From: an uncultured Maribacter sp.
GTDB taxonomy: Bacteria > Bacteroidota > Bacteroidia > Flavobacteriales > Flavobacteriaceae
Direction: 5' to 3'
DNA length: 64,000 bases
Assembly (NCBI GenBank): GCA_947504045.1
Contig: CANNFY010000001.1
Coordinates: 558,001 to 622,000 of the forward strand
Shown: in pieces, positions 1 to 25,806 of the stretch
Numbering within the stretch: position 1 is the first letter of the stretch
Layout of the letters: each line of letters begins with the position of its first letter
Translations under genes and position numbers: made by a program
The notes under the pieces: model-generated
Database searches by the model: none
What the model saw: only the letters and a program-made list of their open reading frames with translations
Told to the model about the DNA's origin: nothing

Positions 1-1736
1 AGGTTGTAAAACGAACTAAAAATTTGTGGTTTAAAGCCTAATGCATTTCCAAATTCTATGAGGTTTTTTTGAGTATCTAGGTGTTTATTATTTCCCCAGA
101 ATGTTTTCCAACGTTTAATCTTTTGTTTTTGTTTTTTCTGAGACGCAACAAGAGCACCTATAGAGCTGTAATTTTTAAGTACACCTTTATTTTTGTTCTC
201 TTTTAAAAGGCCATAAATACTATCATTTATTTGTAATGCACTTTCTAAATTATTACCGTAAGCAGCTGCATAGATAGATTTTGAACCAATATCTGTTAGT
301 GCTTCTAAATTATTTCGAGCATTTAATAATACTTTAGGTTCGTAGTTCATCTTAGCAATATCTGTATTAAACAACACCTTATTATAGGTAAAAATGCTAA
401 CAACTAATGCTAAAGCTATACCAGAAAGAACAATTTTATTTTTATGAATTTGATATGATGCTACACGGTCTAAAATATTCTTTTTAGAAACCTTTTCTTT
501 CTTAGCCTTATATATTTGCGGAATTAATAGCAGAGCAAAAAACGATGCTCCTAAAACACTTATAGCTGCAAAAATACCAAGGTCTTGTAATGCTTGCGAT
601 TTTATAAATAGCAAACACAAAAAAGCACTAGCCGTAGTTACACTACTCATTAAAATTGATGGAGCAACATCTACATACAAACTTTTTATACTCTTATTGT
701 TTCTTATATGTGTAAGTATATGTAAAGAATAATCTAAGGTTACTCCTAAAAGCACAGAACCTATGCCTAATGATATTGCTGAAATTTTACCGCGCAATAA
801 ATATAAAATTGCAATAGATACTAATCCTCCAAAAACAGTTGGCAAAAAAAGAACAATAGGAACTGTAAGTTTACGATAAAAGAAAATAAGTATAACCAAA
901 AGTAGCGTTAATGCTATTCCTACTGTAAATTGAATATCTTTTTTAATTTGATTAGCATTTGCTACTGCAACTAAGGCTGCTCCAAAATATTCGCTGCTTA
1001 CTTTGCCTTTAAATTGTGCATTTAAATGGTCTTGTATTTTATATAACGATTTAGAAAAAACAGTGTTTTTATCTGTTTCACTAGAAGGATATTTTGGGGT
1101 TACAAAAAGTAATATATGCTGTTCATCTTTACTTAGTAAAAAACCGTCTTTTAATACAAAATCATCGCCAACACCTAAACTCTGTAGTTTTTTCATTGCT
1201 ATAAAAGAAAGGCCTAATGGGTCTTTTAAAATTGTTTTCTTAGCAACTATTCCTGTAGGAGAAATAAGGGTTTTATAATTTTGCTTAGTTATACTTTCTA
1301 AGCTATCTCTTGTAATTTTTTGTTCTATTATTTTATAATCCGATTCCTCTAAAAAAAGTGGTAAGTTTTCGTAAATAAAATCAATAGTATTAAAAATTGT
1401 AGTGTCCGAAATTTTGCCTTGAATATTTTTTATATAATCAGACTCCTTAGCTAAACTATCTAAAAAAGTGTTTGCATAGGCAGTAATATCAGAAACCTTA
1501 CTATTGGGTTCTCTTTTTATGTTTATGATAATTTTATCTGTAAACTTTACGGTCTGTAATACTTTTTGGTAGTCTTTATTATCGGTATTTACAGGAATAA
1601 GCTTTGTAATATCTTCCTCAAAAGTAATTTTACTTGCTACATACCCAAAAGCAACTAAAACAAATAATAAGACTATTAAGCCCACCACTTTATGGTTACG
1701 TATTTGTTTGTATATGTTGTATAGAAATTTACCCAT
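1..1736 (-). CDS. MMPL/RND-family exporter of the flexirubin locus (3' end cut by window edge)
   Basis: The ATG is at 1736 and the frame is open to base 1, giving about 578 residues without a stop; family members are usually about 750-850 aa, so the C-terminus is outside the window. One N-terminal membrane helix (about residues 18-38) is followed by a large periplasmic loop, then a block of helices containing GIGSVLLGVTLDYSLHI, typical of MMPL proteins, and the start of a second periplasmic loop. It overlaps the preceding glycosyltransferase by 8 nt (ATGGGTAA). MMPL proteins are constant members of aryl polyene clusters, where they are thought to move the lipid-like pigment across the inner membrane. 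That role is inferred from family and context. Confidence 0.9.
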   Translation of the reverse strand, partial: MGKFLYNIYKQIRNHKVVGLIVLLFVLVAFGYVASKITFEEDITKLIPVNTDNKDYQKVLQTVKFTDKIIINIKREPNSKVSDITAYANTFLDSLAKESDYIKNIQGKISDTTIFNTIDFIYENLPLFLEESDYKIIEQKITRDSLESITKQNYKTLISPTGIVAKKTILKDPLGLSFIAMKKLQSLGVGDDFVLKDGFLLSKDEQHILLFVTPKYPSSETDKNTVFSKSLYKIQDHLNAQFKGKVSSEYFGAALVAVANANQIKKDIQFTVGIALTLLLVILIFFYRKLTVPIVLFLPTVFGGLVSIAILYLLRGKISAISLGIGSVLLGVTLDYSLHILTHIRNNKSIKSLYVDVAPSILMSSVTTASAFLCLLFIKSQALQDLGIFAAISVLGASFFALLLIPQIYKAKKEKVSKKNILDRVASYQIHKNKIVLSGIALALVVSIFTYNKVLFNTDIAKMNYEPKVLLNARNNLEALTDIGSKSIYAAAYGNNLESALQINDSIYGLLKENKNKGVLKNYSSIGALVASQKKQKQKIKRWKTFWGNNKHLDTQKNLIEFGNALGFKPQIFSSFYN

Positions 1737-2898
1737 TATGGCTTACCAACTTTTTTTTCTCAAAAACAGTTAAAAATAAATATGCTGATAATCCAAATAA
1801 AATTGCACCTATAGTAGCTAAAGTTAAACTACCTACTATATAGGTTTTTAAATGCTTTAAACCTTCAAAATTAGTAGTCATTTCTTCTAAAGTGTAAGAA
1901 TAATATTCTCCTAACATAAATTGACCAACCTTAGAACTTGCATATAATACAAAAGGTATAAAAGGTGGCAAACTAATATTAGAAAAGGTAAATGCCAACA
2001 CTTTATTTAAATTTAAAAGAATAGCTAAAGAAATAACTATTACCGTATGTAAACCCCACAATGGAGAAAGGCCAATAAAAATTCCTAATGCTATAGAAAG
2101 TGCTTTTTTTCTTGGAGAATCGTTATTATGTAAAAAATCTTCCCTTATAAATCGTTTAAAGCCTTTTTTTTTAAAACGCCTGTATAAATCTCTTGGTTTT
2201 ATATATAATAATGCAATTAATACCAGCCATGTATTTAAAATACTTATTCTAGTAAAATCTTTAAAAGGTCTAAAATGCGATACTCTTTCCTCTTCGTTAT
2301 AGGTAATTTTAACTGGTAAATTTTTAACCAAAGTACCTCTCCATGCTGCTCTGACTATAATTTCTATTTCAAACTCGAACTTAGGAGTGTAAAATTTTAA
2401 ATCCATTAATTCTGCCAGCGGATATAGTCTAAAACCGCTTTGGGTATCTTTTAGTTTTACTCCTGTTTCAAACCAAAACCAAAAATTGGAAAATTTATTA
2501 CCAAAGCTACTTTTTTTAGGCACATCGGTCTGTCCCATATTACGAGCACCTATATAAAGAACATTTTTAGTTTCTTCTTTTTCTAGTGCATTAATAAAAA
2601 CAGGAATGTCTTCTGGAAAATGTTGCCCATCAGAATCTATAGTAATTGCATAGGTAAAACCTAACTCTAAGGCTTTTTTAAAACCTAGCTTTAAGGCGTT
2701 TCCCTTGCCTTTATTTTTTTCTAACTGTATACAAGTTAAGTGGCTAAACTCTTCTAATACCTGAGCAGTATTATCTGTAGAACCATCATTAATTATAATA
2801 ATATCTTGCGTATAAGCAAGCACCCCTAAAACAACTCTTTTTAAGGTTTTTTGATTATTATAGGTGGGGATAACTACACAGCATTTTAGCTGCTCCAT
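1729..2898 (-). CDS. Family 2 glycosyltransferase fused to a DUF2062 membrane domain
   Basis: 389 aa from the ATG at 2898; the open frame extends to a TTG at 2931, but the ATG lies directly before the GT2 fold. The N-terminal half is a GT-A glycosyltransferase: VVIPTYNNQKTL, NDGSTDN and DSDGQHFPED give the nucleotide- and metal-binding aspartates. The C-terminal part, with RKKALSIALGIFIGLSPLWG and further hydrophobic segments, is a DUF2062 domain of about four helices. The GT2-DUF2062 combination recurs in aryl polyene and flexirubin loci. It may glycosylate a lipid or the pigment; the acceptor is unknown. It heads a two-gene unit with the MMPL gene behind its own promoter at 2978-3008. Confidence 0.88.
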   Translation of the reverse strand: MEQLKCCVVIPTYNNQKTLKRVVLGVLAYTQDIIIINDGSTDNTAQVLEEFSHLTCIQLEKNKGKGNALKLGFKKALELGFTYAITIDSDGQHFPEDIPVFINALEKEETKNVLYIGARNMGQTDVPKKSSFGNKFSNFWFWFETGVKLKDTQSGFRLYPLAELMDLKFYTPKFEFEIEIIVRAAWRGTLVKNLPVKITYNEEERVSHFRPFKDFTRISILNTWLVLIALLYIKPRDLYRRFKKKGFKRFIREDFLHNNDSPRKKALSIALGIFIGLSPLWGLHTVIVISLAILLNLNKVLAFTFSNISLPPFIPFVLYASSKVGQFMLGEYYSYTLEEMTTNFEGLKHLKTYIVGSLTLATIGAILFGLSAYLFLTVFEKKKLVSHNG

Positions 2899-2977
2899 AG
2901 ACTCCTTTATAGATAATGTGTTTTCTACCAAAAATATATGCGTTGTGGGAGTCTTTTACAAAGACTTTAGTTTTGCA

Positions 2978-3008
2978 CAAAGATAACAATTGAAAATACT
3001 AAAACAAC
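2978..3008 (-). promoter_or_regulatory. Internal Bacteroidota-type promoter for the glycosyltransferase-exporter pair
   Basis: On the minus strand the -7 element TATCTTTG occupies 2985-2978, a perfect TAnnTTTG. A GTTG (-33 element, consensus TTTG) occupies 3008-3005, with a 19-nt spacer. Transcription would start near 2971, leaving a leader of about 70 nt before the ATG at 2898. The leader holds a 7-bp perfect hairpin, AGTCTTT-GTA-AAAGACT, at 2966-2950. The -33 part lies inside the end of the upstream gene. Confidence 0.6.
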
Positions 3009-3484
3009 TTCTTTTCAGAAGCATCAAAAAGAGAAGATTGTGCAACGTAATCTTTTACAAACTTCTTGATAGCCTTATTTGTGTTTTTTTTATAATGATC
3101 TATTAAGAATTGTTTGTCTTCTTCTATTTTACTCTTGTACTTTAAAATTTTTGGAGAATGCTCTTGCACACTTAAACGAAGGCAACGTATTTCTATATTT
3201 TTAGGGGCTTTCTCCACAGAAAACTCCAAATACTCTACACCTTTTTTAAAATACTCTTTTTTTTGTTTGATAGTTTTACTGTGCTTTGCTTTTAACGTAG
3301 CAGATGCCCCTTTATAGGCTACCAAAATTGGTTTACTTTCTTTAGTAATATTTTCTAGTGCAGTATATAGTTTTTCTGAAACCTCTTTACTATCGCTTGC
3401 TAATATAAAATTGTTCCTAATCTCCGATAAATTAAGACCAAGTAAACTAACCATTAAAAGTATTGAAGCTATAAACGACTTCAT
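2999..3484 (-). CDS. Small exported protein of the flexirubin locus, function unknown
   Basis: 161 aa with an N-terminal hydrophobic segment (residues 1-20) that looks like a Sec signal peptide. The rest is Lys/Glu-rich and probably helical, with no recognised domain or catalytic motif. The stretch around residues 75-115 (VEYLEFSVEKAPKNIEIRCL) hints at a helical-repeat protein. It begins 1 nt after the stop of the dehydratase gene and is the last gene before the internal promoter. Its place among envelope proteins (LolA-like carrier, lipoprotein, beta-barrel) suggests a periplasmic helper in pigment transport, but that is inference only. Confidence 0.75.
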   Translation of the reverse strand: MKSFIASILLMVSLLGLNLSEIRNNFILASDSKEVSEKLYTALENITKESKPILVAYKGASATLKAKHSKTIKQKKEYFKKGVEYLEFSVEKAPKNIEIRCLRLSVQEHSPKILKYKSKIEEDKQFLIDHYKKNTNKAIKKFVKDYVAQSSLFDASEKKLF

Positions 3485-3485: not shown

Positions 3486-3854
3486 TTAGCTTACTATTTT
3501 AAAAGTTGCACTTAATTTTAACGCTAGAGTGTCTTCAAAAAAAGTAGTGTTTTTTACTTTTATTACTCCTTCCTCTTCTTTAAGGTTTAAAGTCAGTTTT
3601 AGCCTATCATTTTTTTCAGGGTTAATAATTGCCATAAATTTAATATTAGAAGATACCGATAAGAACAACTGTTTTTCTGTTGCTTTTTCTGTAAGTTCTT
3701 TTATTATCTGGATCATACAAACGCCTGGCATAACAGGGTTACCAGGAAAATGACCTTTAAATATATCGTGTTCTTTATATATTTTTATAGTAGCATTTAC
3801 TACATTTTCTTCATTTGTAAAATTCTCTATACTATATAGTCCTTCTATCAACAT
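3486..3854 (-). CDS. Hotdog-fold 3-hydroxyacyl-ACP dehydratase subunit (His-only, ApeI/FabZ-like)
   Basis: 122 aa with the FabZ active-site stretch GHFPGNPVMPGVCMIQ. The catalytic His is His35; the residue 14 places later, Glu in FabZ, is Gln49. In FabZ the His of one subunit works with the Glu of the other. Two other hotdog proteins in this operon (15702-16151 and 16158-16595) keep the Glu region but lack the His, which suggests this one works in a heterodimer, as described for ApeI:ApeP in aryl polyene synthesis. It would dehydrate beta-hydroxyacyl-ACP to give the conjugated polyene. It lies 3 nt after the preceding beta-barrel gene. Confidence 0.85.
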   Translation of the reverse strand: MLIEGLYSIENFTNEENVVNATIKIYKEHDIFKGHFPGNPVMPGVCMIQIIKELTEKATEKQLFLSVSSNIKFMAIINPEKNDRLKLTLNLKEEEGVIKVKNTTFFEDTLALKLSATFKIVS

Positions 3855-3857: not shown

Positions 3858-4466
3858 TTAAATCTTAAATTTATACGCAATTCCTACTTGAAAAACGTTG
3901 TTTAAACTTGGGTTACCAGAATCGTTTTCATCCTCCGTATCAGAATACCAAAAGTAATCGTCAAACAAATCTATATTAATTAATCCTTGTTTATATCTTG
4001 CTTCAATAATTAATCCGAACGGAAATTCATATCCAATTCCAAAAAACAAAGATAGGTCTACCGGAGTTACATCTGAGTCATCTGTACCGCCATTAATCAG
4101 ATTAATAAAATTGTTATCAAAATCAAAATCGATGCTAGGTCCTAAAATAAAATGTAAGCCTTGTTTAGGAATTACATAAAATTTATTTGCAGCTGCTATA
4201 GATATATAATTAATATTTAAATCTTCTTGATTAAAAGAAGATTCGCCACCTTGGTTAGAAAAACTTATTTCTGGTTGTAAGGCATAAAAATCTGACAACC
4301 TTACATCTAAAAAAACAGCTCCATTTAGTCCTATTTTATTTTCTAAATTGGTATTAGATATATTTGCGCTATTTAATCCTAAACGTATTCCAGGGTTTAC
4401 TCTAGACTGAGCAAAACCTAGTATAGAAAAACTAAAAAACAGAATTAGAAAAAGTATTTTTTTCAT
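3858..4466 (-). CDS. PorT-like outer-membrane beta-barrel protein
   Basis: 202 aa with a clear signal peptide (hydrophobic residues 4-18, cleavage after GFA). The mature part has the alternating pattern of a small outer-membrane barrel: NPGIRLGLNSANIS, ALQPEISFSNQG, LHFILGPSIDF and GIGYEFPFGLIIEARY, ending in a short strand VGIAYKFKI with an aromatic near the C-terminus. This matches the OMP_b-brl_2 group common in Flavobacteriaceae. Position 2 nt after the lipoprotein gene places it among envelope functions of the pigment locus. It could be an outer-membrane partner for flexirubin deposition, but I see nothing specific. Confidence 0.8.
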   Translation of the reverse strand: MKKILFLILFFSFSILGFAQSRVNPGIRLGLNSANISNTNLENKIGLNGAVFLDVRLSDFYALQPEISFSNQGGESSFNQEDLNINYISIAAANKFYVIPKQGLHFILGPSIDFDFDNNFINLINGGTDDSDVTPVDLSLFFGIGYEFPFGLIIEARYKQGLINIDLFDDYFWYSDTEDENDSGNPSLNNVFQVGIAYKFKI

Positions 4467-4468: not shown

Positions 4469-5077
4469 TTAAATTCCTTTTAAATGTATTTTTAATTTAA
4501 TGTTTTTATGCTCTATTAGTATTTGTTGTGCAATGCTATTTTTACTATTGGAAAAGTAGTACACCACTTTTTCTTTTCCATTATCTACTCTTACAATTTT
4601 TGTTAAAGTAGTAGAATCGTAAAAATAAAAATGTGTTTTATCTAATACTTTTGTTTCTTGAATTTTTACGTTTTGCTTTAAAAAATTTGCTCTACTATAA
4701 TTATACTCTTTTAGTAAGCTAGTAAAATCTCTTTGCAGGGTATTAAGAATAATTTTCTTATTCATATCTTCCAAAATATGATTTACTTTAAAAGTATTTT
4801 TATAAAATGAAAAATCGAAAATCTTATTTCCCATTTCTGTAGTAAAAACCAATCGGTGTTCTTGATCTGAAATTTTTTTTATAATAACAATTCCAGAAAA
4901 CTTTTTTTTATAAAACTCCAAATTAGCCTTATAAACATAATCTTTTGTTACATTAGAAAAATAAGGATTATAAACTTGTGTTGTGTTTATTTCACTTTTT
5001 ACAAAGTTATTTTTTTTTGGATAACTTACACAAGAAACCATAATTAACAAGCTAATACTACTGAGCAAATACCGCAT
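4469..5077 (-). CDS. Lipoprotein of the flexirubin locus, function unknown
   Basis: 202 aa beginning with a lipoprotein signal; LLIMVSC is the lipobox, so Cys16 would be lipidated. The body is beta-rich and polar (IVIIKKISDQEHRLVFTTEMG, THFYFYDSTTLTKIVRV), resembling small outer-membrane lipoproteins that accompany LolA-like carriers. Its start overlaps the LolA-like gene by 20 nt, implying translational coupling. Aryl polyene clusters of Proteobacteria also have a lipoprotein beside their LolA-like protein; this may be the counterpart, but I recognise no specific family. Confidence 0.75.
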   Translation of the reverse strand: MRYLLSSISLLIMVSCVSYPKKNNFVKSEINTTQVYNPYFSNVTKDYVYKANLEFYKKKFSGIVIIKKISDQEHRLVFTTEMGNKIFDFSFYKNTFKVNHILEDMNKKIILNTLQRDFTSLLKEYNYSRANFLKQNVKIQETKVLDKTHFYFYDSTTLTKIVRVDNGKEKVVYYFSNSKNSIAQQILIEHKNIKLKIHLKGI

Positions 5078-5681
5078 CTGGAATTACTTTATTTATTTCT
5101 CGATTAGAAAAAATAATCTGCGTATAATCATTAGAAGGCTCTACCATTTTTAATTCCAAAACATCGCCATTACTATTAAAAGTAATGTGAAAAACTTTTA
5201 TAAAATCGGATAGCTTAGGGTCTTTAGGTGCAAAATGTACCTCGCTATTTTTATCTTTCTTAAAATAAGTAATAGCAAAATAATCGGTATTAAACATATC
5301 GCCTTTTATACTTGCTGCAATAAGTGTATTTAACTCTTTAAATAATTTATTGGAACCAATATCTACATTACTTTTATCGCCTTCATTATTTATATATAAA
5401 GTTTCACCTTTAAATAATACAGAATAAGCAAAAGGCTTTACATATTCCCATTTTACCGTATTTGGAGCTTTAAAATATAACTTTCCGGTAGATTCTATAT
5501 CATTAGACAAAAAATCTAAATGCTTGTATTGTGTAAAATTACTAGATATAGATTGGGTTTTATCTGCTGTATTTTTTACTTTGCTCTTTAACACCTCGGC
5601 CTCTTGATGGCTCATTTTTGTTTGTGCTGTAGCAACTGTTCCTAAAGCAATAAAAAAAATAAAATATACGATCTTATTCAT
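5058..5681 (-). CDS. LolA-like periplasmic lipid/lipoprotein carrier
   Basis: 207 aa with a signal peptide ending near ATAQ (residue 20). The mature sequence follows the LolA fold: SISSNFTQYKHLDFL, STGKLYFKAPNTVKWEYVKPFAYSVLFKGETLYINNEG and a late ITFNSNGDVLELKM. The segment G-x-L-Y-F-x-x-P matches the LolA pattern. Aryl polyene and flexirubin clusters encode a dedicated LolA-like protein, thought to shuttle the hydrophobic product or an intermediate across the periplasm. It overlaps the deacetylase by 8 nt and the next lipoprotein by 20 nt. Confidence 0.87.
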   Translation of the reverse strand: MNKIVYFIFFIALGTVATAQTKMSHQEAEVLKSKVKNTADKTQSISSNFTQYKHLDFLSNDIESTGKLYFKAPNTVKWEYVKPFAYSVLFKGETLYINNEGDKSNVDIGSNKLFKELNTLIAASIKGDMFNTDYFAITYFKKDKNSEVHFAPKDPKLSDFIKVFHITFNSNGDVLELKMVEPSNDYTQIIFSNREINKVIPDAVFAQ

Positions 5682-6450
5682 ACGCTAATATATCTAGCAA
5701 TTTATTTACAGTTATAGACTGCATTTTTTTCTGTTGTAAAAATAACAATAACTGTTCCAAAACCGCTACGCTTTTAGCACTTGTATCATGTAAAAGAATA
5801 ATATCGCCTTTTTTTAAGTTTCTGGTTATTCTACGCAACACCATATTTTTTGACCTTTTGGTAGTATCTAAAGAACGAACACTCCATCCTATTGAAATTA
5901 AATTAACTTCTTTTAAAGCTTTTTTAATTCTAGGATTTGTTACCCCAAAAGCTGGCCTATATAAACGTAATTTTTTATTAAAAATAGATTTTACAAGAGC
6001 ATTTGTTTGCTCTAATTCTTGCTTAACTTTTTTAGTGCTTAAAAAACCAAAATTACGCGTATGTGAGTATGTATGATTACCTATTGTATGGCCTTCTTTT
6101 AATATTCTATCAGCAATAGCTTGGTTCTCTTTTATATGTTTACCTACGCAAAAAAAAGTGGCTTTTGCATTATATTTTTCTAATAGTTCTAAAACCTGAG
6201 GCGTAAATTCTGGATGCGGACCATCATCAAAAGTAATTGCGACCTTGTTTTCTGCTATATTTTGATTTTTATGGTGCGATTTGATATGATAATTCCATTG
6301 TATAAAGAAAGAGCCACAAACAGTAATAGCAAACCATATAAAAGCGATAATACCATATAAAAAAAGAGGTATTGAAAACCAATAATTTAAAATAAGTAAT
6401 ACACCGAAAAGTACAATTACAATTCTATTTATAACGCCAAACCTTAGCAT
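5674..6450 (-). CDS. NodB-type polysaccharide deacetylase family protein, membrane anchored
   Basis: 258 aa. Two N-terminal hydrophobic segments (about residues 8-50) are followed by a NodB domain: VAITFDDGPHPEFTP supplies the catalytic Asp and the first metal Asp, and IGNHTYSHTR the two metal-binding His. Later motifs RLYRPAFG and DIILLHD are also typical. Such enzymes remove N- or O-acetyl groups from sugars. Its presence in a pigment operon suggests that a sugar or an ester in the final product or its lipid carrier is trimmed. It overlaps the upstream KS-like gene by 7 nt and the LolA-like gene by 8 nt. Confidence 0.88.
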   Translation of the reverse strand: MLRFGVINRIVIVLFGVLLILNYWFSIPLFLYGIIAFIWFAITVCGSFFIQWNYHIKSHHKNQNIAENKVAITFDDGPHPEFTPQVLELLEKYNAKATFFCVGKHIKENQAIADRILKEGHTIGNHTYSHTRNFGFLSTKKVKQELEQTNALVKSIFNKKLRLYRPAFGVTNPRIKKALKEVNLISIGWSVRSLDTTKRSKNMVLRRITRNLKKGDIILLHDTSAKSVAVLEQLLLFLQQKKMQSITVNKLLDILAYE

Positions 6451-7508
6451 TGCTTTAGTAAAGTGAAGCTATGGTTTTCTCCCCTATACTGGTTGTACAA
6501 TAAAATAGTTTTTAAAGCGCTTGTTTTCTTTTGGTTTAATTTAACTACTTCAGGAATAGATTGGGTTTTAAGTATTTTGCCTCCCAACCAAAATGCAAAA
6601 GATGATGCGGTATTATATTCACCGCTTAAATGTTTATAATACACTTGTTGTGTATTTGCAAAAATACCTTCTGATAGTAAATTATAGTACCCATCAAAAT
6701 CTACATCGCCATTATTACCTAAAACAACAGCGTCTATTTCAGATACATTAGAACCGTTTTCTTCTAAAAAGGCAACTATTTTATTTTCTAAATTTTCTTT
6801 AGACAATGTATTTAGCGTTTCTACAGCTATAACTTGCGCATAAGAACTTTCTTGTTGTTTGGTAGAAAGCATAAAAAAACCAGCTCCTTCTCCAAAAATT
6901 GCTCCAGAAGTGTTACTCTCTAATAAAGAAGATGTATCTGTATTTTCTTCTTTAACAAAGCCTATTAATTGATGAATTTTAACTGTATGCGGTGCATTTT
7001 CGTCTACTCCTCCAACTAATATATTTTCTTCCTCGCCTAAAGTTAACTGCAATTGCGCATCTAACAAAGCCGACTCAAAAGATGCGCCAGAATGTACGTA
7101 TGTAAAATTATACCCTTTACATTGTATACCTAAAGCTATTTGACCACCAACTGTATTGTGTGTAGATTGTATAAATGAAGTTGGAGTTAAAAACTCCTCT
7201 TTATTATCTATTAATTTGCTTAAGAATTTTTCGGAATCTATTAAACACCCCATTCCTGTTCCTGTAATAATAGCATCTACATTTTCTAGCTGTGCTTCTT
7301 TCATAGCTATATTAGAAGCTACTACACCCATTTTTACTCCTAAAGCCATTCTACGAGCTGCGCCGCCAGAAATATAGTCTTTATAAACAGGGTTTATAAC
7401 AGGAATAACCCTATCATTATAAGTAATTACCTCCTCTAAAAACTTTGAATTATCAAAAGTATTTTGAGCAGAAATAACACCACAACCGTTTATAAAAACT
7501 TTTTTCAT
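6444..7508 (-). CDS. Chain-length-factor-like ketosynthase lacking all catalytic residues
   Basis: 354 aa with a thiolase/FabF-like fold (MKKVFINGCGVISAQ, VDAIITGTGMGCLIDSEKF). All three active-site positions are changed: the Cys position reads HSGASF (Ala142), the first His motif is LGNNGDVD, and the K...GH motif reads KHLSGEYNTAS with Glu instead of His. This is the picture of a chain length factor, the inactive half of a KS-CLF heterodimer in type II polyketide synthases. It overlaps the active KS gene (7508-8704) by a single base, so the two are translationally coupled and probable partners. Confidence 0.85.
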   Translation of the reverse strand: MKKVFINGCGVISAQNTFDNSKFLEEVITYNDRVIPVINPVYKDYISGGAARRMALGVKMGVVASNIAMKEAQLENVDAIITGTGMGCLIDSEKFLSKLIDNKEEFLTPTSFIQSTHNTVGGQIALGIQCKGYNFTYVHSGASFESALLDAQLQLTLGEEENILVGGVDENAPHTVKIHQLIGFVKEENTDTSSLLESNTSGAIFGEGAGFFMLSTKQQESSYAQVIAVETLNTLSKENLENKIVAFLEENGSNVSEIDAVVLGNNGDVDFDGYYNLLSEGIFANTQQVYYKHLSGEYNTASSFAFWLGGKILKTQSIPEVVKLNQKKTSALKTILLYNQYRGENHSFTLLKQC

Positions 7509-9611: not shown

Positions 9612-9623
9612 TTTAGAACTCAC

Positions 9624-18660: not shown

Positions 18661-19539
18661 TTATTTAGAGTTCCAAAATTTAAAATAATTAAACCATTGT
18701 AATGGATATTTTTCTATCATCCACTCCATGCTTTCTGTATATTCTTTTAATAAAGCTAAGGCGTTTCTGCTTTGCACATTTGCTTTTCTTGCAAATAGAT
18801 GATAATGTTTTTTTGGTTCTTTCATTACATACACAAAAAGAACAGGAACATTTAACCTAGAGGCCATTAAAAAAGGCCCAGCAGGAAACTCTGCCTCTTC
18901 TCCCAATAATTTTTGAGTAAGAGTTTTATTTCCTTCAAAATAACGATCTCCAGTAAAACATACTAAACCACCTTGATCTAGAGCTGTTTTTATTTCAAAA
19001 ATGTGATTTAAACCCTCTTTAACCAATATAAATTTTATACTAGACTTTACCGTTACACTTTCTAAATATTCTTTTATTTTTTCGTGCTCATTATCTGTAG
19101 TAACAAGATGAATTTGCGAATTATGATCTATTTCATCAAAAAAGAAATCTGCAATTTCAAAATTTCCAATATGGGCACTAATTAAAATACCACCTTGTTT
19201 TTTTTTTAAGAGTTTATTAATCTCCTCTACACCATCAAATTCATATGTAAACTTATTTCTTAAACCACTTGATATAGCTACTTTGTCTATTATGGTTTGC
19301 CCAAAAACATAGGTGTTTTTTAATACACTTATTGTGCTTTTTAACTTAGAATATTTTAAATGATTTTTAAAATAATCGTAACTAGAAGATCTTCCCTCTC
19401 TAGAAAATAGAAAGAAATAAAAAACAACAAAGTTTAGTATAAAATAAGCAAAAGAAAGGCCTAAAGTTTTTATAAAAAAAACAAAGATCCTATACCCTAA
19501 TACGGTTCCTTTGGATTTTCCTTCCCACTTTTTTGCCAT
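18661..19539 (-). CDS. LpxL/HtrB-like acyltransferase
   Basis: 292 aa with a membrane helix near residues 18-45 and the LpxL active-site motif SAHIGNFEIADFF, an HX4E arrangement. Later segments CFTGDRYFEGNKT and AGPFLMASRLNVPVLFVYV fit the lipid A lauroyl acyltransferase family (about 300 aa). Aryl polyene clusters carry such an enzyme, thought to attach an acyl or aryl-polyenoyl group to a lipid or sugar. It is one of two candidates in this locus, with the BtrH-like protein, for the ester link between polyene and acceptor. It lies 5 nt before darA. Confidence 0.88.
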   Translation of the reverse strand: MAKKWEGKSKGTVLGYRIFVFFIKTLGLSFAYFILNFVVFYFFLFSREGRSSSYDYFKNHLKYSKLKSTISVLKNTYVFGQTIIDKVAISSGLRNKFTYEFDGVEEINKLLKKKQGGILISAHIGNFEIADFFFDEIDHNSQIHLVTTDNEHEKIKEYLESVTVKSSIKFILVKEGLNHIFEIKTALDQGGLVCFTGDRYFEGNKTLTQKLLGEEAEFPAGPFLMASRLNVPVLFVYVMKEPKKHYHLFARKANVQSRNALALLKEYTESMEWMIEKYPLQWFNYFKFWNSK

Positions 19540-19546: not shown

Positions 19547-19789
19547 TTACCCTAATTTTTGCTCAATAAGATTGTAAAAATGTTGCAATGTAGTAACGTT
19601 GATAAAATCTTCACCAACAAGTTTTACTCCAAAATTAGATTCAACAGCAACTACAAGGTCTACAAAATCTAAACTATCTAATTCTAAAGTATCTTTAAGG
19701 TTAGCTTCAGGATGAATATCCTCTTCTTCTACCTCAAATTCATCTATAAGAAAGTCGTTTATCTTTTCAATAATAACTTCTTTATCCAT
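19547..19789 (-). CDS. Acyl carrier protein (second)
   Basis: 80 aa; the phosphopantetheine serine is Ser39 in TLELDSLDFVDLVVAVE. It is very acidic. It starts directly after the KS gene stop (no gap) and 7 nt before the LpxL-like gene, which suggests it works with that KS and possibly donates acyl groups to the acyltransferase. The two ACPs of the locus share the DSxD core but differ in flanking residues, so they probably have different partners. Confidence 0.94.
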   Translation of the reverse strand: MDKEVIIEKINDFLIDEFEVEEEDIHPEANLKDTLELDSLDFVDLVVAVESNFGVKLVGEDFINVTTLQHFYNLIEQKLG

Positions 19790-21010
19790 CTATTTTATTG
19801 TTTTTATTACAAGAGCAGAGTTTGTTCCCCCAAACCCAAAAGAATTGGATAAAAATACATCAATTTTTTTATTTATGGTTTTGGTTGCTAAATTTAATTT
19901 AGCGGAATCTTCATCTGTGTTTTCTAAATTTATATTTGGAGCTACAAATGAGTTTTGCATCATTAACATAGAATATATTATTTCACTAGCTCCTGCCATC
20001 CAACATTCATGCCCAGTCATAGATTTTGTTGAGCTTACCAAAGGCTTATGTTTTCCAAAAACTTCATAAATTGCTTTTGCCTCATTAGCATCGCCTACTG
20101 GTGTAGAAGTTGCATGCGCATTAACATAATCTATTTGCGAAGCATCTATGTTAGCATCTTCTAAAGCTCTTAGCATTGCTTTTGAAGGTCCGTCTACGTT
20201 TGGTGTAGATATATGCCCACCATTGGATGAAAATCCGTAGCCTACAACCTCTCCTAAAATTGGCGCTCCTCTTTTTATGGCAGATTCGTAACTTTCTAAT
20301 ATTACAGTAGCTCCACCTCCACTTGGTACCAAGCCACTCCTATCTTTATCAAAAGGGCGCGATGCCTTAGTTGGGTTTTCATTATTTATTGCAAAAACCC
20401 CAAGACCATCAAAACTAGCCATTGCTAACGGATTAATTTCTTGTGCTCCTCCTGATATAATACAATCTTGCATGCCACTCTTAATTAAATGGTACGCCAT
20501 ACCTATTGCATGGGAACCACTTGCACACGCTGCACTAACTGTAAAATTAACACCTGTTAATCTATATATAGTAGATAGGTTCATGGTAATTGTAGAGTTC
20601 ATTGCTTTAAAAATAGCACCTGAACCAACAAGTGTTGTATCTTTCTTTTCTCTAACTGTATCTATAGAGTCTATTACAGATTTTGCAGTACTATCATTAC
20701 CATAAATAATACCTACTTCATTTGCATCTAAATATTCTTGTGAAATTTTAGCATTAGCCAACGCTTCTGCTGTAGCTACGTATGCATAGGCACCTTCTTG
20801 TCCTAAACTAATACGCTGCCTTCTAGAAAGTATTTTTTTTAAAATAGGAGGATCCACCATTCCTGTTAGGGGAGATCTATACCCTAAATCTTTTCTTTCT
20901 TGATCAAAAACAATTCCAGATTTACCCTCATATAAAGAGGATTTTACCTCATCTAGGTTTTTTCCTATACAAGAATATATTCCCATTCCAGTAATTACAA
21001 CTCTTCTCAT
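19790..21010 (-). CDS. Beta-ketoacyl-ACP synthase (ApeO-like, FabF family)
   Basis: 406 aa. The catalytic residues are intact: Cys162 in VSAACASGSHAIG, His299 in VNAHATSTPVGD, Lys329 and His334 in STKSMTGHECWMAGASE. The GHECWMAG variant in place of GHTLGAAG is characteristic of the aryl polyene KS subfamily as I know it. It would elongate the polyene chain together with the adjacent ACP (no gap) and ketoreductase (15-nt gap). A CLF-like partner is probably one of the KS-like proteins at 6444-7508 or 9006-9611. Confidence 0.93.
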   Translation of the reverse strand: MRRVVITGMGIYSCIGKNLDEVKSSLYEGKSGIVFDQERKDLGYRSPLTGMVDPPILKKILSRRQRISLGQEGAYAYVATAEALANAKISQEYLDANEVGIIYGNDSTAKSVIDSIDTVREKKDTTLVGSGAIFKAMNSTITMNLSTIYRLTGVNFTVSAACASGSHAIGMAYHLIKSGMQDCIISGGAQEINPLAMASFDGLGVFAINNENPTKASRPFDKDRSGLVPSGGGATVILESYESAIKRGAPILGEVVGYGFSSNGGHISTPNVDGPSKAMLRALEDANIDASQIDYVNAHATSTPVGDANEAKAIYEVFGKHKPLVSSTKSMTGHECWMAGASEIIYSMLMMQNSFVAPNINLENTDEDSAKLNLATKTINKKIDVFLSNSFGFGGTNSALVIKTIK

Positions 21011-21025: not shown

Positions 21026-21778
21026 TTAAGAGTATATCCCTCCATTTATATTTATTACTTCTCCTGTAATATAAGAAGCTTTTTTAGAAATTAAAAAAGA
21101 AACTAGGTCTGCTACTTCTTGAGCTTCTCCAAACCTGTTGGCAGGTATCATTTTTTTTAACTCTTTTTCGTTAAGCTCCCCTGTCATATCTGTTTTAATA
21201 AAACCTGGAGCTACTGCATTAACCGTAACATTTCTTTTAGCTACTTCTTGTGCTAATGCTTTTGTTGCTGCTATAATTGCACCTTTTGCTGCAGAATAAT
21301 TTGTTTGCCCTGGTGTTCCTTTAAGACCAGAAACAGAAACCATATTTACTATTCTTCCGTATTTATTTACTAGTAATTTTTGAATAAGATGATTTGTCAC
21401 ATTAAAAAAGCCATTTAAACTTGTATTAATAACCGTAGACCAATCTTCTGGCTTCATCCACATAAATAAGCCGTCTTTAGTTATTCCTGCATTATTTACA
21501 ATTGCTTCTATAATAGCATTTTCATTTGCTTGTTGCCAAGCATCTAATTTTGCTTTAACATCCTCTAAATTACCAACATTAAATTGAATAATTTCCCCAG
21601 AACCTCCTGCGTTTTCTACTTCTTTTAAAGTATTGTCTGCGGCTTCTTTATTACTATTATAGTTAATAAGAATTTTATAATCTGAATCTTTTGCTAATTG
21701 AATGCATACTGCTTTTCCTATTCCACGAGAGCCTCCTGTTACTAGAGCATACTTTTTAGGTTCAATTTTCTCCTTCAT
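21026..21778 (-). CDS. 3-oxoacyl-ACP reductase (FabG-like SDR, ApeQ-like)
   Basis: 250 aa short-chain dehydrogenase. The NADPH-binding motif is ALVTGGSRGIGKAVC, NNAG is present in AIVNNAGITKDG, and the catalytic Ser-Tyr-Lys lies in MVSVSGLKGTPGQTNYSAAK. It should reduce beta-ketoacyl-ACP to the hydroxy form before dehydration by the hotdog subunits. Placement between the tyrosine ammonia-lyase side and the KS gene fits the aryl polyene cycle. A role in general fatty acid synthesis is less likely given the operon. Confidence 0.93.
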   Translation of the reverse strand: MKEKIEPKKYALVTGGSRGIGKAVCIQLAKDSDYKILINYNSNKEAADNTLKEVENAGGSGEIIQFNVGNLEDVKAKLDAWQQANENAIIEAIVNNAGITKDGLFMWMKPEDWSTVINTSLNGFFNVTNHLIQKLLVNKYGRIVNMVSVSGLKGTPGQTNYSAAKGAIIAATKALAQEVAKRNVTVNAVAPGFIKTDMTGELNEKELKKMIPANRFGEAQEVADLVSFLISKKASYITGEVININGGIYS

Positions 21779-21799: not shown

Positions 21800-22930
21800 T
21801 TATTTACTAGTATTTACAAAGTTTTCTGCATTCTGAAACCATTTTCCTCCAAGAACCTCTCCTTTTTCATTAATAAAGCCCCACATTTTTTTGTATTTTA
21901 CTTTTGCTAAGCCATTAATAAACCCTTTTTTAAAACCAGACATTACAAAAGAAAAACCGCCAGATATATCATACTCCATAGGAATAACTAAGGTTCCTGA
22001 AGTATTAATAAACCCCCATTTTTTATCTCTTACAGGAGCTAAACCTTTGTCTCCAAAAATTTCTGCGTCTTTATAATCAAAAGCTATTACCTCTTCGCCT
22101 TTTTCATTTATATACCCCCATGTTTTTTCTTTTAAAACAGGAGCTAATCCACCTACAAAAGCTTTTGCTTTATTATACACTGGCTCTATAACCCACTCGC
22201 CTTTTGCATTAATAAAACCCCACATTTTACCTTTTCTTGCATAGGTAAGGCTAGAAGAATCATGAAAATCCCAAATTTTAGTAGCACCAGGTACAACTTG
22301 TAATTTACCATTAACTATTACACCAAAATCTTCGCCTTTTCTTCCCCATATACCATTACTATTATACCTGCTAATTTCTTTATATTCTGCAGGTATAACC
22401 AAATCTCCTTTTTTATTAATTAAGCCCCAAGACTCTCCTACTTTAACCTTGGCATGACCTTCCCAAAAGTTTTTTACTATAGTATATTTAGGTTCTAAAA
22501 TAAGTTTACCATCGGTTCCTAAAATTCCTATTTTTTCTCCTTTTTTAAATAGCGCTACACCATCTTTAAAATCGTAATATTTATCTGGAATAGGGGTTTC
22601 TAATTGTTTTCCTGTTCCGTCTATATATTTCCAAACCTCATTACTAAACACTAAGGCATATCCAGAATTAAATCTTTTTACTTTATCGTATTCTGGTTTA
22701 ATTACCCACTCTCCTTTTGTATTAATAAAGCCCCATTTTTCATTTTTTCTAGCTGCTGCATATTTGCCAGAAAAACTTGCTGCTTTTTCAAATTGTGGCT
22801 CAATTACATATGCTCCAGATTTATTAATGTACCCAAACATATCGTTCTCTCTAACCAATGCAAGTTCTTGTGCATAGGTAAATGATATGGATAATAAAAT
22901 AGTTAAAATGAATAAAAGCCCCCTTTTCAT
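21800..22930 (-). CDS. Exported WG-repeat protein
   Basis: 376 aa with a signal peptide (residues 1-20, cleavage after TYA). The rest is about nine imperfect repeats of roughly 35-45 residues, each like KWGFINTKGEWVIKPEYDKV, i.e. WG repeats that form a beta-propeller-like or solenoid surface. Such proteins have no known enzymatic activity and may bind partners in the envelope. Its location between the ammonia-lyase (6-nt gap) and ketoreductase genes is unexpected for a biosynthetic operon and may indicate a structural role in pigment placement. Function is not established. Confidence 0.9.
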   Translation of the reverse strand: MKRGLLFILTILLSISFTYAQELALVRENDMFGYINKSGAYVIEPQFEKAASFSGKYAAARKNEKWGFINTKGEWVIKPEYDKVKRFNSGYALVFSNEVWKYIDGTGKQLETPIPDKYYDFKDGVALFKKGEKIGILGTDGKLILEPKYTIVKNFWEGHAKVKVGESWGLINKKGDLVIPAEYKEISRYNSNGIWGRKGEDFGVIVNGKLQVVPGATKIWDFHDSSSLTYARKGKMWGFINAKGEWVIEPVYNKAKAFVGGLAPVLKEKTWGYINEKGEEVIAFDYKDAEIFGDKGLAPVRDKKWGFINTSGTLVIPMEYDISGGFSFVMSGFKKGFINGLAKVKYKKMWGFINEKGEVLGGKWFQNAENFVNTSK

Positions 22931-22936: not shown

Positions 22937-24463
22937 TTAGTTTTCGTTGTTAATAATAAAATCTTTTACTTGATTAACAAAAGGATACATTACTGGATCC
23001 TCTTTAAACGGGGGTACTATTTTTCTTATTTTAGAATATAAAGCTTTTGTTTTAGATGAAATTTTATCTTGAACTTCTAAATACTCTATAGCTTGTGTAA
23101 TTGTAATTAGTTCTATTGCCATAACTTCAAAAGCATTTTCAATTACTCTTTTAGTTATTAATGCTGCATTTGTTCCCATACTAACAATATCTTGATTATC
23201 GTTATTATTTGGTATACTATGCACATACATTGGGTTAGATAGCATTTGGTTTTCTGCTGTAGTAGAAGTTGCGGTAAATTGCACTCCTTGCATACCAAAA
23301 TTTAAACCTAACTCACCAAGGTTAACAAACGGAGGAAGTATATCATTTAACTTAGAGTTCATTAAAAAATTAAGTTGCCTTTCTGCCAACATACTGGTTT
23401 TTGCAACTACTATTTTTAACTTATCCATTTCTAATGAAACATAATCTCCATGAAAATTACCACCATGATAAACATGCTTTTTTTCTACATTAACTATGGG
23501 ATTATCATTAGCAGAATTTACTTCTTCAATCATTATTTTTTCCACACCATTTAGGGTATCTAAAACAGGCCCTAATATTTGCGGAACACACCTAATGGAA
23601 TAATATTCTTGTACTTTTTCTTCAAAAACAGAAACATTATCATTATTAGTATATAAATGATGTTCTCTTTTTCTTGTTAGTTGGCTATCTTTTAAATGAC
23701 TACGCATAGAACGCGCAATTTCTCGCTGCCCTTTATGCATTTTTGTATTATTTAGCTCTTCGGACAAATGATCATCATAAGCCTGCATAATTTCATTTAT
23801 TGCAGATGAAGAAGCAATCATCCATTCTAATAACCTACGGGTATATATTGTATTTACAATACCTATACCTGTCATTACAGATGTACCATTAATAAGACCT
23901 AAGCCCTCTCTAAGTTCTACCGTAATTGGCTTTAAACCTTCCTTTTTAAATATTTCTTTTGTGGTCTTTCTTTCTCCTTTATAAAAGACCTCACCTTCTC
24001 CTATTAAAACTAGTGCTAATTGTGCTAATTGCACCAAATCTCCACTAGCTCCTACACCACCATGCTCATATATTAAAGGTGTTATATCTCTATTAATTAA
24101 CTCTATCATTAATTCTACAACAGAAATATGTATTCCAGAGTTTCCTAAACTTAATGTATTAAGTCTAGCTAACATAGCTGCTTTTACATATTGAGGTGCA
24201 ATGGGATTTCCTGTTCCAGAAGCATGGCTTCTGATAAGGTTGTATTGTAATTTAATTCTTTCGGAGTCTTTAATCTTATACTGAGCCATTGGCCCAAATC
24301 CTGTATTAACTCCGTAAATTACTTTGTTTTTAGAAAATTCTTTTAAAAACTCATGACTTTCATTAATTGTGTCTACAGCTTTTTGATCAATAGTTAATTT
24401 TTCTCCTTTGAAAATTACATCATAAAATTCTGCAATTCCTAACTTTCCTTTAATTTTTGGCAT
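22937..24463 (-). CDS. Tyrosine ammonia-lyase (MIO-type aromatic amino acid lyase)
   Basis: 508 aa. The MIO cofactor forms from Ala139-Ser140-Gly141 in GGVGASGDLVQLAQ; the catalytic Tyr50 lies in VIYGVNTGFGPMAQ. The selectivity pair is Ser79-His80 (LIRSHASGTG), which looks like histidine ammonia-lyase, yet the whole sequence resembles, from memory, the F. johnsoniae tyrosine ammonia-lyase, which also has SH. It deaminates tyrosine to 4-coumarate, the aryl starter of flexirubin. As first gene of the operon it follows a consensus promoter at 24525-24554, with a leader of about 55 nt. Confidence 0.93.
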   Translation of the reverse strand: MPKIKGKLGIAEFYDVIFKGEKLTIDQKAVDTINESHEFLKEFSKNKVIYGVNTGFGPMAQYKIKDSERIKLQYNLIRSHASGTGNPIAPQYVKAAMLARLNTLSLGNSGIHISVVELMIELINRDITPLIYEHGGVGASGDLVQLAQLALVLIGEGEVFYKGERKTTKEIFKKEGLKPITVELREGLGLINGTSVMTGIGIVNTIYTRRLLEWMIASSSAINEIMQAYDDHLSEELNNTKMHKGQREIARSMRSHLKDSQLTRKREHHLYTNNDNVSVFEEKVQEYYSIRCVPQILGPVLDTLNGVEKIMIEEVNSANDNPIVNVEKKHVYHGGNFHGDYVSLEMDKLKIVVAKTSMLAERQLNFLMNSKLNDILPPFVNLGELGLNFGMQGVQFTATSTTAENQMLSNPMYVHSIPNNNDNQDIVSMGTNAALITKRVIENAFEVMAIELITITQAIEYLEVQDKISSKTKALYSKIRKIVPPFKEDPVMYPFVNQVKDFIINNEN

Positions 24464-24524
24464 CTAATGTTGGCTATACTTAAATAAGCGGCAATTTATA
24501 AATAAAAATGATTAATTTGGTGTG

Positions 24525-24554
24525 CAAATTTATATTATTTAATAAATACCCAAT
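24525..24554 (-). promoter_or_regulatory. Main promoter of the flexirubin operon
   Basis: On the minus strand TAAATTTG (24532-24525) matches the Bacteroidota -7 element TAnnTTTG exactly. ATTG (24554-24551) is a near match to the -33 TTTG, with an 18-nt spacer. Transcription would begin about 24518, some 55 nt before the ATG at 24463. All genes down to 2999 are within 38 nt of each other or overlap, so this may be the only promoter for 27 genes. The element lies in the short divergent region shared with the FAD enzyme gene. Confidence 0.6.
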
Positions 24555-24567
24555 TTTAAATTACAAG

Positions 24568-25806
24568 ATGATTCAAGAAAATGTTGAAGTATTAATCATA
24601 GGAGCAGGTCCTTCTGGCTCAGTAGCAGCTTCTTATTTACATAATAATGGCTTTAACGTAAAAGTTGTTGAAAAAAACCTATTCCCAAGATTTGTTATTG
24701 GCGAAAGCCTTCTGCCAAGGTGTATGGATCATTTTGAGGAAGTAAACTTATTACAACCTTTAAAAGATTATGGATTTGAAGTTAAGTCTGGTGCACGGTT
24801 TATGAGAGGCAAAGAAATTTGTAATTTTGATTTTGGAAAAAAACACGGAGAAGGCTGGGACTGGACGTGGCAAGTACCTAGAGCAGATTTTGACACCGTT
24901 CTAACCAACACTCTTATAGATAGAGGTGTAGATATTGCTTTTGAACAAGAGGTTACCAATGTAGAAATTACAGACAAAGGATCCTTAGTTACCATTAAAA
25001 AAAGTAACGGAGAAATTTCAGAAATCTCTGCAAAATTTATAATAGATTCTAGTGGATACGGTAGAGTACTACCTAGGTTATTAGATTTAGAAAAACCATC
25101 TCCACTACCAAAACATTCTTCTATTTTTGCTCATGTTAAAGAAACAAAAAGACCAGAAGGAGTAGAGGGTACATTAATAACTTTTGATGTTTTAAGTAAA
25201 GAAACCTGGTTATGGGTAATACCTTTTTCTAACGGCCATACTAGCATTGGTCTTGTAGGCCCTACAGAGTATATGGAGTCTTTTAAAGGCACAAATGAAG
25301 AAAAGCTAAAAGAAATAATAAAACTATCTACTTATTACAGAGACCGTTTTGATGGTTTAGATTTTGACTTTGAACCAAAACTTATAAAAAATTATTCTAA
25401 ATCTGTAAAACAAATTCACGGTAAGGGATATGCGCTTACAGGAAATAGCGCAGAATTCTTAGATCCTGTATTTTCTTCAGGAGTAACATTTGCAACCGAA
25501 TCTGCTTTACTTGCTGCAAAATTAGCTGCAAAACAATTAAAAGGAGAAGAAGTTAATTGGGAAAAAGAGTACTATGGTTATATAAAAGAAGGAGTAGATG
25601 TATTTTCTACCTATGTAAAAGAATGGTATACTGGAAATTTACAGAAAATATTTTTTCATAGACCTGAAAATCCTGAGATAAAAAAACAAATATGTGCTGT
25701 ATTAGCTGGTTATGTTTGGGATAAAACAAACCCATTTGTAAAAAACCATAATCGATTGGTTAGGACCGTTGCCAAAGTAATAGACATGGAAAACCAAACT
25801 GTGTGA
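24568..25806 (+). CDS. FAD-dependent halogenase-like oxidoreductase
   Basis: 412 aa from the ATG at 24568; a longer frame to 24508 would place the start upstream of the dinucleotide fold and over the divergent promoter. The FAD motif is VLIIGAGPSGSVAASYL. It has GESLLPRC, TWLWVIPFSN (the WxWxIP motif of flavin-dependent halogenases) and Lys73 in FEVKSGARF, aligned with the catalytic lysine of tryptophan halogenases. It could halogenate or hydroxylate the aryl head or resorcinol of the pigment; chlorinated flexirubins exist. It is divergent from the operon and followed by a terminator at 25813-25843. No flavin reductase gene is seen nearby. Confidence 0.88.
   Translation: MIQENVEVLIIGAGPSGSVAASYLHNNGFNVKVVEKNLFPRFVIGESLLPRCMDHFEEVNLLQPLKDYGFEVKSGARFMRGKEICNFDFGKKHGEGWDWTWQVPRADFDTVLTNTLIDRGVDIAFEQEVTNVEITDKGSLVTIKKSNGEISEISAKFIIDSSGYGRVLPRLLDLEKPSPLPKHSSIFAHVKETKRPEGVEGTLITFDVLSKETWLWVIPFSNGHTSIGLVGPTEYMESFKGTNEEKLKEIIKLSTYYRDRFDGLDFDFEPKLIKNYSKSVKQIHGKGYALTGNSAEFLDPVFSSGVTFATESALLAAKLAAKQLKGEEVNWEKEYYGYIKEGVDVFSTYVKEWYTGNLQKIFFHRPENPEIKKQICAVLAGYVWDKTNPFVKNHNRLVRTVAKVIDMENQTV

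Follow-up and report, generated by a model that had tools for sequence, protein, structure and literature searches.

A flexirubin locus of an uncultured Maribacter, its polyene and dialkylresorcinol modules, and DarH as a candidate for the ester-forming step

We analysed a stretch of 64,000 nucleotides (the window) from an uncultured, probably marine Maribacter sp. (GCA_947504045.1, contig CANNFY010000001.1, positions 558,001 to 622,000; C1:558001-622000 of a host genome of 3.46 Mb), whose first 25,806 positions hold a gene cluster that very probably encodes a flexirubin, i.e., an orange-yellow pigment in which an aryl-polyene acid is esterified to a 2,5-dialkylresorcinol (DAR). The original prediction, made from the letters alone, had described 29 minus-strand genes and one divergent gene, which the list of open reading frames (ORFs) confirms (29 minus-strand ORFs, 3-24463, and a divergent plus-strand ORF, 24508-25806). 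It had also called the locus nearly complete; the locus is that of a flexirubin, but its incomplete look is an edge effect, because the window's left end cuts it and about 7.3 kb more, to about window position -7342, lead to a FlxY-like ligase at its end. From this ligase to the tyrosine ammonia-lyase (TAL), 33 minus-strand genes (four of them wholly left of the window) follow each other with gaps of -34 to 67 bp, only two of which are larger than 25 bp. The predicted MMPL exporter does belong to that family, but the ORF 3-1736 is cut by the window edge, and the whole gene encodes 1224 amino acids (aa) with MMPL and a terminal PlsC-type acyltransferase domain. Beyond it the left flank continues with a CrtI-like flavoenzyme, a JmjC/cupin-8 protein, a C45-type (AAT) protein and an AMP-ligase at the FlxY place. 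The next leftward gene (transglutaminase-like, 17 bp away, same strand) had no match in the DarB regions of 30 relatives, and an Rfam scan of the whole window gave 0 matches.

Relatives were drawn from an order sample of 196 genomes, 55 of which have DarB over its family cut-off (the window's own genome included); DarB regions of 40 kb each were compared in 30 of the other 54. To these were added 80 named loci of about 21 kb each or less, found through DarH (Maribacter, Aequorivita, Arenibacter and others), and a phylum sample of 247 genomes, partly the same as the order sample. Three relatives (G066, G123, G404) have what we call polyene-only loci. Ketosynthases (KS), acyl carrier proteins (ACP) and other genes are referred to below by their first coordinate.

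1..1736 (-), MMPL/RND (resistance-nodulation-division) exporter, truncated C-terminally by the window edge; kept in 3/3 polyene-only loci
1729..2931 (-), glycosyltransferase family 2 (GT2) enzyme with DUF2062 (Pfam), polyene module; 3/3 polyene-only loci
2999..3484 (-), small protein without Pfam or NCBIfam family; 28/30 DarB regions, adjoins DarA in G081 and G283
3486..3854 (-), FabA/ApeI-like dehydratase subunit, His35 conserved, Gln49 at the FabZ Glu position (alignment; weak match to 6qsr chain A)
3858..4466 (-), beta-barrel protein of the outer membrane, with poor conservation (17/30)
4469..5077 (-), LolB2, flexirubin lipoprotein (NCBIfam NF053540, 241.8 bits, cut-off 60)
5058..5681 (-), LolA-like carrier (family match), polyene module (module split)
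5674..6450 (-), NodB-type deacetylase, conserved D75, D76, H126 and H130, polyene module
6444..7508 (-), KS-like protein without catalytic residues (alignment), putative chain-length factor
7508..8704 (-), ApeO-like KS, C161, H294 and H329 conserved (6qsp chain A, E 4.9e-48)
8743..9000 (-), ACP, S41
9006..9623 (-), short inactive KS-like protein (alignment)
9624..10691 (-), FlxJ-like methyltransferase (NF053543, 444.2 bits, below the cut-off of 560)
10709..11857 (-), KS, C146, H276 and H310 conserved
11850..12299 (-), YbgC/FadM-type thioesterase (Pfam/NCBIfam)
12277..13548 (-), ABC-2 (ATP-binding cassette) permease, DAR module
13541..14284 (-), ABC ATPase, DAR module
14298..15308 (-), DarH, BtrH-related acyltransferase with predicted papain-like fold, C18, H131 and D147 (NF053550, 516.7 bits, cut-off 300)
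15298..15735 (-), DarG (NF053545, 211.5 bits, cut-off 170)
15702..16151 (-), hotdog dehydratase subunit with Glu57 retained and the FabZ site lacking His (H14 elsewhere)
16158..16595 (-), hotdog dehydratase subunit with Glu63 retained and Tyr in place of the FabZ His, putatively ApeP-like
16596..17729 (-), DarB, C124, H297 and N332 conserved (NF053539, 657.9 bits, cut-off 550)
17726..18655 (-), DarA, adjoins DarB in 30/30 loci
18661..19539 (-), LpxL-like acyltransferase, polyene module
19547..19789 (-), ACP, S39
19790..21010 (-), FabB/ApeR-like KS, C162, H299 and H334
21026..21778 (-), ketoreductase (KR; Pfam)
21800..22930 (-), WG-repeat protein, accessory
22937..24463 (-), FlxA, TAL, conserved S140 in an Ala-Ser-Gly triad (NF053541, 878.1 bits, cut-off 700)
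24508..25806 (+), halogenase-like flavoenzyme, W234-x-W236 and K93 conserved in 24 relatives compared
about -6056 to -4371, left of the window, C45-type lipoprotein with AAT domain
L002:8631-9503, left of the window, JmjC/FIH-like member of the 2-oxoglutarate oxygenase family

Five proteins (FlxA, DarB, DarG, DarH and LolB2) score over the curated NCBIfam cut-offs for flexirubin or DAR families, and Pfam and NCBIfam support the functions named in the original prediction: aromatic amino-acid lyase, KR, ketosynthases, ACPs, hotdog proteins and DarB, as well as LolA, MMPL, GT2, ABC exporter, thioesterase, methyltransferase and a Trp_halogenase-type flavoenzyme. The Ala-Ser-Gly triad of FlxA we take to be the MIO (4-methylideneimidazole-5-one) motif. 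DarA, for which no curated model scored above its cut-off, was identified by its position next to DarB in all 30 regions, and it is 30% identical to the neighbour of a DarB gene on a Streptomyces plasmid. The coenzyme A (CoA) ligase is absent from the window; an AMP-binding protein lies just outside it, at the cluster end, and 22 of the 30 DarB regions contain such a FlxY-like ligase, while the remainder lie partly beyond the sequence taken; further genomes have one close to FlxA. The flexirubin reading thus rests on curated family matches, on synteny and on the scheme published for Chitinophaga pinensis, as far as that is described in PMC3992019, and we saw no sign that the closest homologues belong to an unrelated polyketide cluster. 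Some points lessen its firmness: the FlxJ-like methyltransferase, of a kind that varies among flexirubins, falls below its family cut-off (444.2 against 560 bits), the FlxY-like label of the putative ligase comes from the AMP-binding family and its position, and the presumed halogenase was assigned by motif and fold family. Of the predicted tyrosine-derived, methylated aryl head, the tyrosine origin holds (FlxA over its cut-off) but the methylation is less sure, and of the accessory genes left without a step, the BtrH-like and HTH-like (helix-turn-helix) ones turned out to be the named families DarH and DarG, whereas the WG-repeat gene did remain an accessory.

The host's relatives agree with this picture. 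Maribacter thermophilus and M. halichondriae are reported as flexirubin-positive, and four other Maribacter type strains as negative both for the pigment and in antiSMASH prediction (according to the part of PMC10942906 available to us); M. thermophilus HT7-2 carries the locus as far as the 21-kb stretch compared (L146) shows it. Among the named records, Maribacter vaceletii DSM 25230 has the most similar DarH (94% identity), and the other 79 named loci kept are mainly from Flavobacteriaceae, e.g., Aequorivita, Arenibacter, Kriegella and Pricia. One record titled Bifidobacterium breve (L162, a metagenome-assembled genome) has a Bacteroidota-type flexirubin locus and is probably mislabelled or contaminated. 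Eleven genes occur in the DarB region of all 30 relatives, including DarA, DarB, DarG, DarH, both ABC genes, KS 7508, KS-like 6444, KS 10709 and ACP 8743, and 17 more in 26 to 29 of them, the counts for KS 19790 and the KR including a few weak paralogue matches; this synteny excludes chance. The LpxL-like, C45, CrtI-like, GT2, ACP 19547 and 3486-type hotdog genes are each found in 27/30, LolA, LolB2 and the deacetylase in 26/30, and the TAL in 26/30, a 27th (G165) being gained with one more stretch. FlxA is present in 8/8 genomes of the window's genus. Other genes are more scattered: the WG-repeat gene, found in 18 of 19 genomes of the window's family and in 0 of 11 others, is best regarded as a family-level accessory; the FlxJ-like gene occurs in 2/30 DarB regions and 57/80 named loci (59/110 together), several of these loci being truncated; and the JmjC-type gene occurs in 1/30 (G094), in G066, and in four of the eight genomes of the genus including the window's own (E 1e-30). 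The insertion of this JmjC/FIH-like protein in the locus suggests a possible hydroxylation step on the pigment. In G094 a second DarB-like gene (G094:C12:543156-544262; 394.7 bits) with an unusually long frame of 617 aa is present in addition to the normal darB.

Judged by natural splits among relatives, the genes sort into a putative polyene module and a putative DAR module. In their polyene-only loci, G066, G123 and G404 have each retained 17 genes, some at just 27-35% identity: TAL, KR, LpxL-like acyltransferase, 16158-type hotdog, thioesterase, KS 10709, short KS-like protein, ACP 8743, KS 7508, KS-like 6444, deacetylase, LolA, 3486-type hotdog, GT2, MMPL, C45 and ligase. Beside the TAL of G066 we saw no FabB-like KS and no CrtI-like gene, and beside that of G404 no halogenase-like gene. 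DarA had no match in any of the three genomes and DarH none in G066 and G123 (E 1e-30) or G404 (E 1e-60), and neither the ABC pair nor DarG turned up in the polyene-only stretches fetched, no genome-wide search having been made for them. The loci of G066, G123 (L182-L186) and G404 (L190-L192) should make a tyrosine-derived aryl polyene and not a flexirubin. TAL and DarB lie apart in 3/30 genomes (G081, G095, G162), whose polyene genes are elsewhere, near FlxA (fewer in G162 than in G081 and G095 within the 60 kb taken); in G081 a DarA-DarB-DarG-DarH-ABC-ACP-KS-KS-like run lies about 350 kb from FlxA. In G210, DarA-DarB, DarG-DarH and FlxA occupy three separate places, and in G283 a run of DAR genes on the plus strand adjoins polyene genes on the minus strand. 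These splits therefore assign the ABC exporter to the resorcinol half, and GT2, deacetylase, LolA and MMPL to the polyene half. In G062 (G062:C1:3279975-3282020) darA and darB are both broken and the matches to darH and flxA uninterrupted, possibly a recent loss of the resorcinol half.

According to the published account, the first two polyene steps and the formation of the resorcinol have been shown, whereas the joining step was proposed (PMC3992019). Here we suggest, at about even chances, that DarH is the polyene-DAR ester synthase, i.e., a papain-fold, carrier-protein-dependent acyltransferase which would work via Cys18 onto a phenol oxygen of the dialkylresorcinol; we infer this role because of its predicted fold, its conserved residues and its co-occurrence with the two modules. 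DarH consists of BtrH_N and DUF4872 domains (Pfam), and according to the part of PMC10318531 available to us, BtrH_N belongs to an ACP:aminoglycoside acyltransferase from the papain-like superfamily. An AlphaFold2 model built from 23 sequences (predicted local distance difference test, pLDDT, 80.8; predicted template modelling score, pTM, 0.83) likewise has a papain-like fold with a helical C-terminal part, in which C18 stands at a helix start, H131 in a strand and D147 just past the next strand; the three residues are invariant in the 23 aligned sequences and at least 99% conserved in 110 loci. Foldseek matched the model along its length to AziU3, CtaG and CcbD (template modelling score, TM, 0.57-0.71; E 1e-8 to 1.4e-5; alignments of 341-376 columns), with a C39-like peptidase next in the list. 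The CtaG matches include deposited variants titled C11A, H128A and D144N, the distance from His to Asp is 16 residues in both DarH and CtaG, and that from Cys to His is 113 and 117, respectively. For CtaG, transfer of a carrier-bound hydroxybenzoyl group onto a peptidyl carrier has been proposed (PMC6772006, in the accessible text). DarH scored over its cut-off in 56 of the 196 genomes of the order, all 56 of which have FlxA and 55 DarB over the cut-off, the remaining one (G062) having a broken darB, and the two genomes with FlxA but without DarB (G066, G123) showed no DarH at E 1e-30. In the phylum sample DarH occurs in 18/247; each of these genomes also has FlxA and a DarB match, and just two of them were not already in the order sample.

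Several observations weigh against this assignment. Searches of the PDB by sequence, with DarH alone and with its profile, found no relative, and the Foldseek matches are at 11-13% identity. FlxA and DarB are almost always together, and because of this the co-occurrence test rests on a handful of exceptions; one more genome, G404, shows no DarH, although FlxA is present together with a DarB-like protein that stays below the cut-off (498.9 bits). BtrH, CtaG, AziU3 and CcbD resemble DarH in predicted fold and in the Cys, His, Asp pattern (BtrH by its Pfam domain), yet they are known as amide-forming or peptidyl-transferring, whereas DarH would form a phenol ester, and an ester-forming member of this group is presumed. 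Furthermore, the three Streptomyces plasmids mentioned below may be near copies of one another, and Schoner et al. proposed the ligase-like FlxW for the joining step (PMC3992019, in the part available). In the literature searched, which leaves most subscription journals uncovered and was partly available as full text, no assignment of the flexirubin ester step to a BtrH-like protein was found.

Other enzymes might form the ester. If polyene and resorcinol were exported separately, the C45-type lipoprotein could join them in the periplasm or outer membrane: it has an AAT domain, a conserved C181 and a lipoprotein-like signal (read from the sequence), it is present in 27/30 DarB regions, and flexirubin is an outer-membrane pigment, as cited in PMC3992019. 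Its gene is, however, kept in 3/3 polyene-only genomes that have neither DarA nor DarH, and because of this it follows the polyene rather than the resorcinol, which makes the explanation unlikely. Slightly better, though still improbable, is an ester made by a lipid-type acyltransferase (LpxL-like 18661-19539 or the PlsC domain of the MMPL protein) or by a ligase-like FlxW, with DarH doing something else; such acyltransferase domains are present in the locus and the FlxW role is the published proposal (PMC3992019, as far as available), but the LpxL-like and MMPL genes are again kept in 3/3 polyene-only genomes, and acyltransferase mutants of E. coli retained partial pigmentation, which the accessible text of PMC8253772 reads as a sign of anchoring enzymes. 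Since polyene-only genomes keep C45, LpxL-like and MMPL-PlsC proteins, these rank below DarH for the joining step.

DarH could instead act within resorcinol formation or export, and its grouping with DarG, DarA, DarB and the ABC genes in G081 and G283 would suit such a role. Heterologous expression of darA and darB nevertheless yielded resorcinol (cited in PMC3992019, in the part available), and a plasmid search, in which DarA matched just three Streptomyces records, all also with DarB-like genes, did not find these three among the plasmids with a DarH match (plasmids were searched, chromosomes not); three Streptomyces plasmid records with DarH-like proteins are different ones. We hold this explanation to be about as unlikely as the C45 route. 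A different polyene conjugate as the product, or a silent locus, seems very unlikely: modification of the product through the JmjC-type protein and the halogenase-like gene is conceivable, but the gene set is conserved and a flexirubin-positive relative carries the locus. Esterification by DarH remains our preferred explanation, at the even chances given above.

As a counter-example to DarH, G404 was set aside, its DarB-like gene lying beside a TetR-like gene in a genome without a DarA match. As read from the sequence, this gene (L188, around 11400-13131) stands directly behind the TetR-like gene, and plasmids of Bacteroides, Phocaeicola and Prevotella also have DarB-like genes behind TetR or HTH genes; next to the one in G404 and those in L209 and L210 (Prevotella, Bacteroides) no DarA-like gene is annotated; a DarB-like ketosynthase in this position may make another product. 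On the Streptomyces plasmid L211 an ACP-DarB-DarA group is accompanied by P450, monooxygenase and fabF/fabG genes, and polyene genes are not annotated; this is likely a dialkylresorcinol-type pathway. In addition, 45 Acinetobacter plasmids have a BtrH_N-type protein, about 28% identical to DarH among the matches listed.

DarG adjoins DarH on one strand in 30/30 genome regions and 80/80 named loci, and also in G210 and G283. Its model is of moderate confidence (pLDDT 73.2, pTM 0.49) and shows an N-terminal hairpin and long helix followed by an XRE-like helix-turn-helix; the C-terminal part resembles XRE-type DNA-binding domains, with no match reaching E 0.001. DarG might possibly be a regulator or a partner of DarH. 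The divergent flavoenzyme matched chain A of 3nix (a close relative of solved structure, titled only Flavoprotein/dehydrogenase) with 477.6 bits, far ahead of PltA and CmlS, and its matches to these two support a flavin adenine dinucleotide (FAD) fold. Its conserved K93 and W234-x-W236 presumably fit the WxWxIP motif and the catalytic Lys of flavin-dependent halogenases.

The polyene synthase is a type II set of KS, KS-like partner, KR, dehydratase and ACP. As had been predicted, three ketosynthases appear active, with Cys-His-His at least 99% conserved in 106, 109 and 107 relatives compared, and two KS-like proteins lack catalytic residues when aligned with them: in 6444-7508 the Cys is replaced by Gly and both His are missing, and in 9006-9623 neither the Cys nor the first His is present. 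KS 7508 matches chain A of 6qsp, a published ApeO-ApeC entry (E 4.9e-48), FabF structures scoring higher, and KS 19790 is FabB-like, as ApeR is. Because the ApeC chain was not matched by 6444-7508 in the PDB sequence search, a chain-length role for this protein is put forward tentatively. Aligned together, the three hotdog proteins have complementary half-sites, His35 with Gln49 at the FabZ glutamate position in 3486-3854 (43 relatives), Glu63 with Tyr at the His position in 16158-16595 (109 relatives), and Glu57 with no His at the FabZ site in 15702-16151 (108 relatives). This suggests a dehydratase heterodimer like ApeI:ApeP, in which the two Glu-type subunits would be alternatives; 3486-3854 has a weak match (E 0.0012) to chain A of 6qsr, which we take to be the ApeI:ApeP heterocomplex of Xenorhabdus.

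In the pathway proposed here, FlxA would convert tyrosine to 4-coumarate, which the FlxY-like ligase left of the window would activate and the type II system (ApeO-like KS with its KS-like partner, FabB/ApeR-like KS, KR and complementary hotdog dehydratase) would extend to the polyene. The FlxJ-like enzyme probably methylates the ring, on which the halogenase-like enzyme may also act. DarB and DarA would make the dialkylresorcinol, the LolA/LolB2/MMPL/GT2/deacetylase set would serve envelope export of the polyene and the ABC exporter the resorcinol side, and DarH would take the polyene from its carrier protein onto Cys18 and pass it to a phenol oxygen of the resorcinol, giving the ester.

The locus is an ordinary, complete-looking flexirubin cluster of an already known type. 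We compared it with those of Chitinophaga pinensis (flxA-flxY, with separate dar) and Flavobacterium johnsoniae by published description; as described in the accessible part of PMC3992019, TAL, CoA ligase, several KS, reductase, dehydratase and thioesterase genes are common to them, as are the LolA/GT2/deacetylase/exporter set, darA and darB. Here, in contrast, the genes form one 33-gene minus-strand run with a divergent flavoenzyme, and a JmjC-type gene is inserted near its end. With the ape clusters of E. coli, Xenorhabdus and Acinetobacter it shares, according to the parts of PMC8253772 and PMC8358021 available, the pair of KS and chain-length factor, a FabB-like KS, two ACPs, a KR and two dehydratases, as well as LolA, a LolB-like protein, an RND exporter and a glycosyltransferase/acyltransferase, whereas the starter here is tyrosine-derived instead of 4-hydroxybenzoate and a resorcinol module is added. 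The arc/dar system of Azoarcus (arcuflavin), as far as described in PMC3949708, also gives a polyene-DAR ester pigment and has a dar cluster with a BtrH-like gene (named darE there), ABC transporter genes and an ACP; it differs in its hydroxybenzoate starter, from a XanB2-type enzyme, and in its gene letters, its darG and darH being described otherwise than NCBIfam DarG and DarH.

Flexirubins serve as a standard marker in chemotaxonomy, and 1,234 flexirubin clusters were counted in 2,680 Flavobacteriaceae genomes by an antiSMASH survey (PMC10734526, in the part accessible); in view of the polyene-only relatives, a flexirubin-type TAL should not by itself be taken to predict flexirubin. What is added to the known cluster type are the module split, the proposal for DarH and the half-site reading of the dehydratase subunits. 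The natural splits of the locus sort the accessory genes and single out darH as a one-gene test of the joining step. If the proposal is true, DarH would add an ester-forming enzyme to the BtrH/CtaG/CcbD group, one that occurs where a polyene module and a resorcinol module come together, and it would perhaps have this role also in the arcuflavin system of Azoarcus, with DarG as its partner or regulator.

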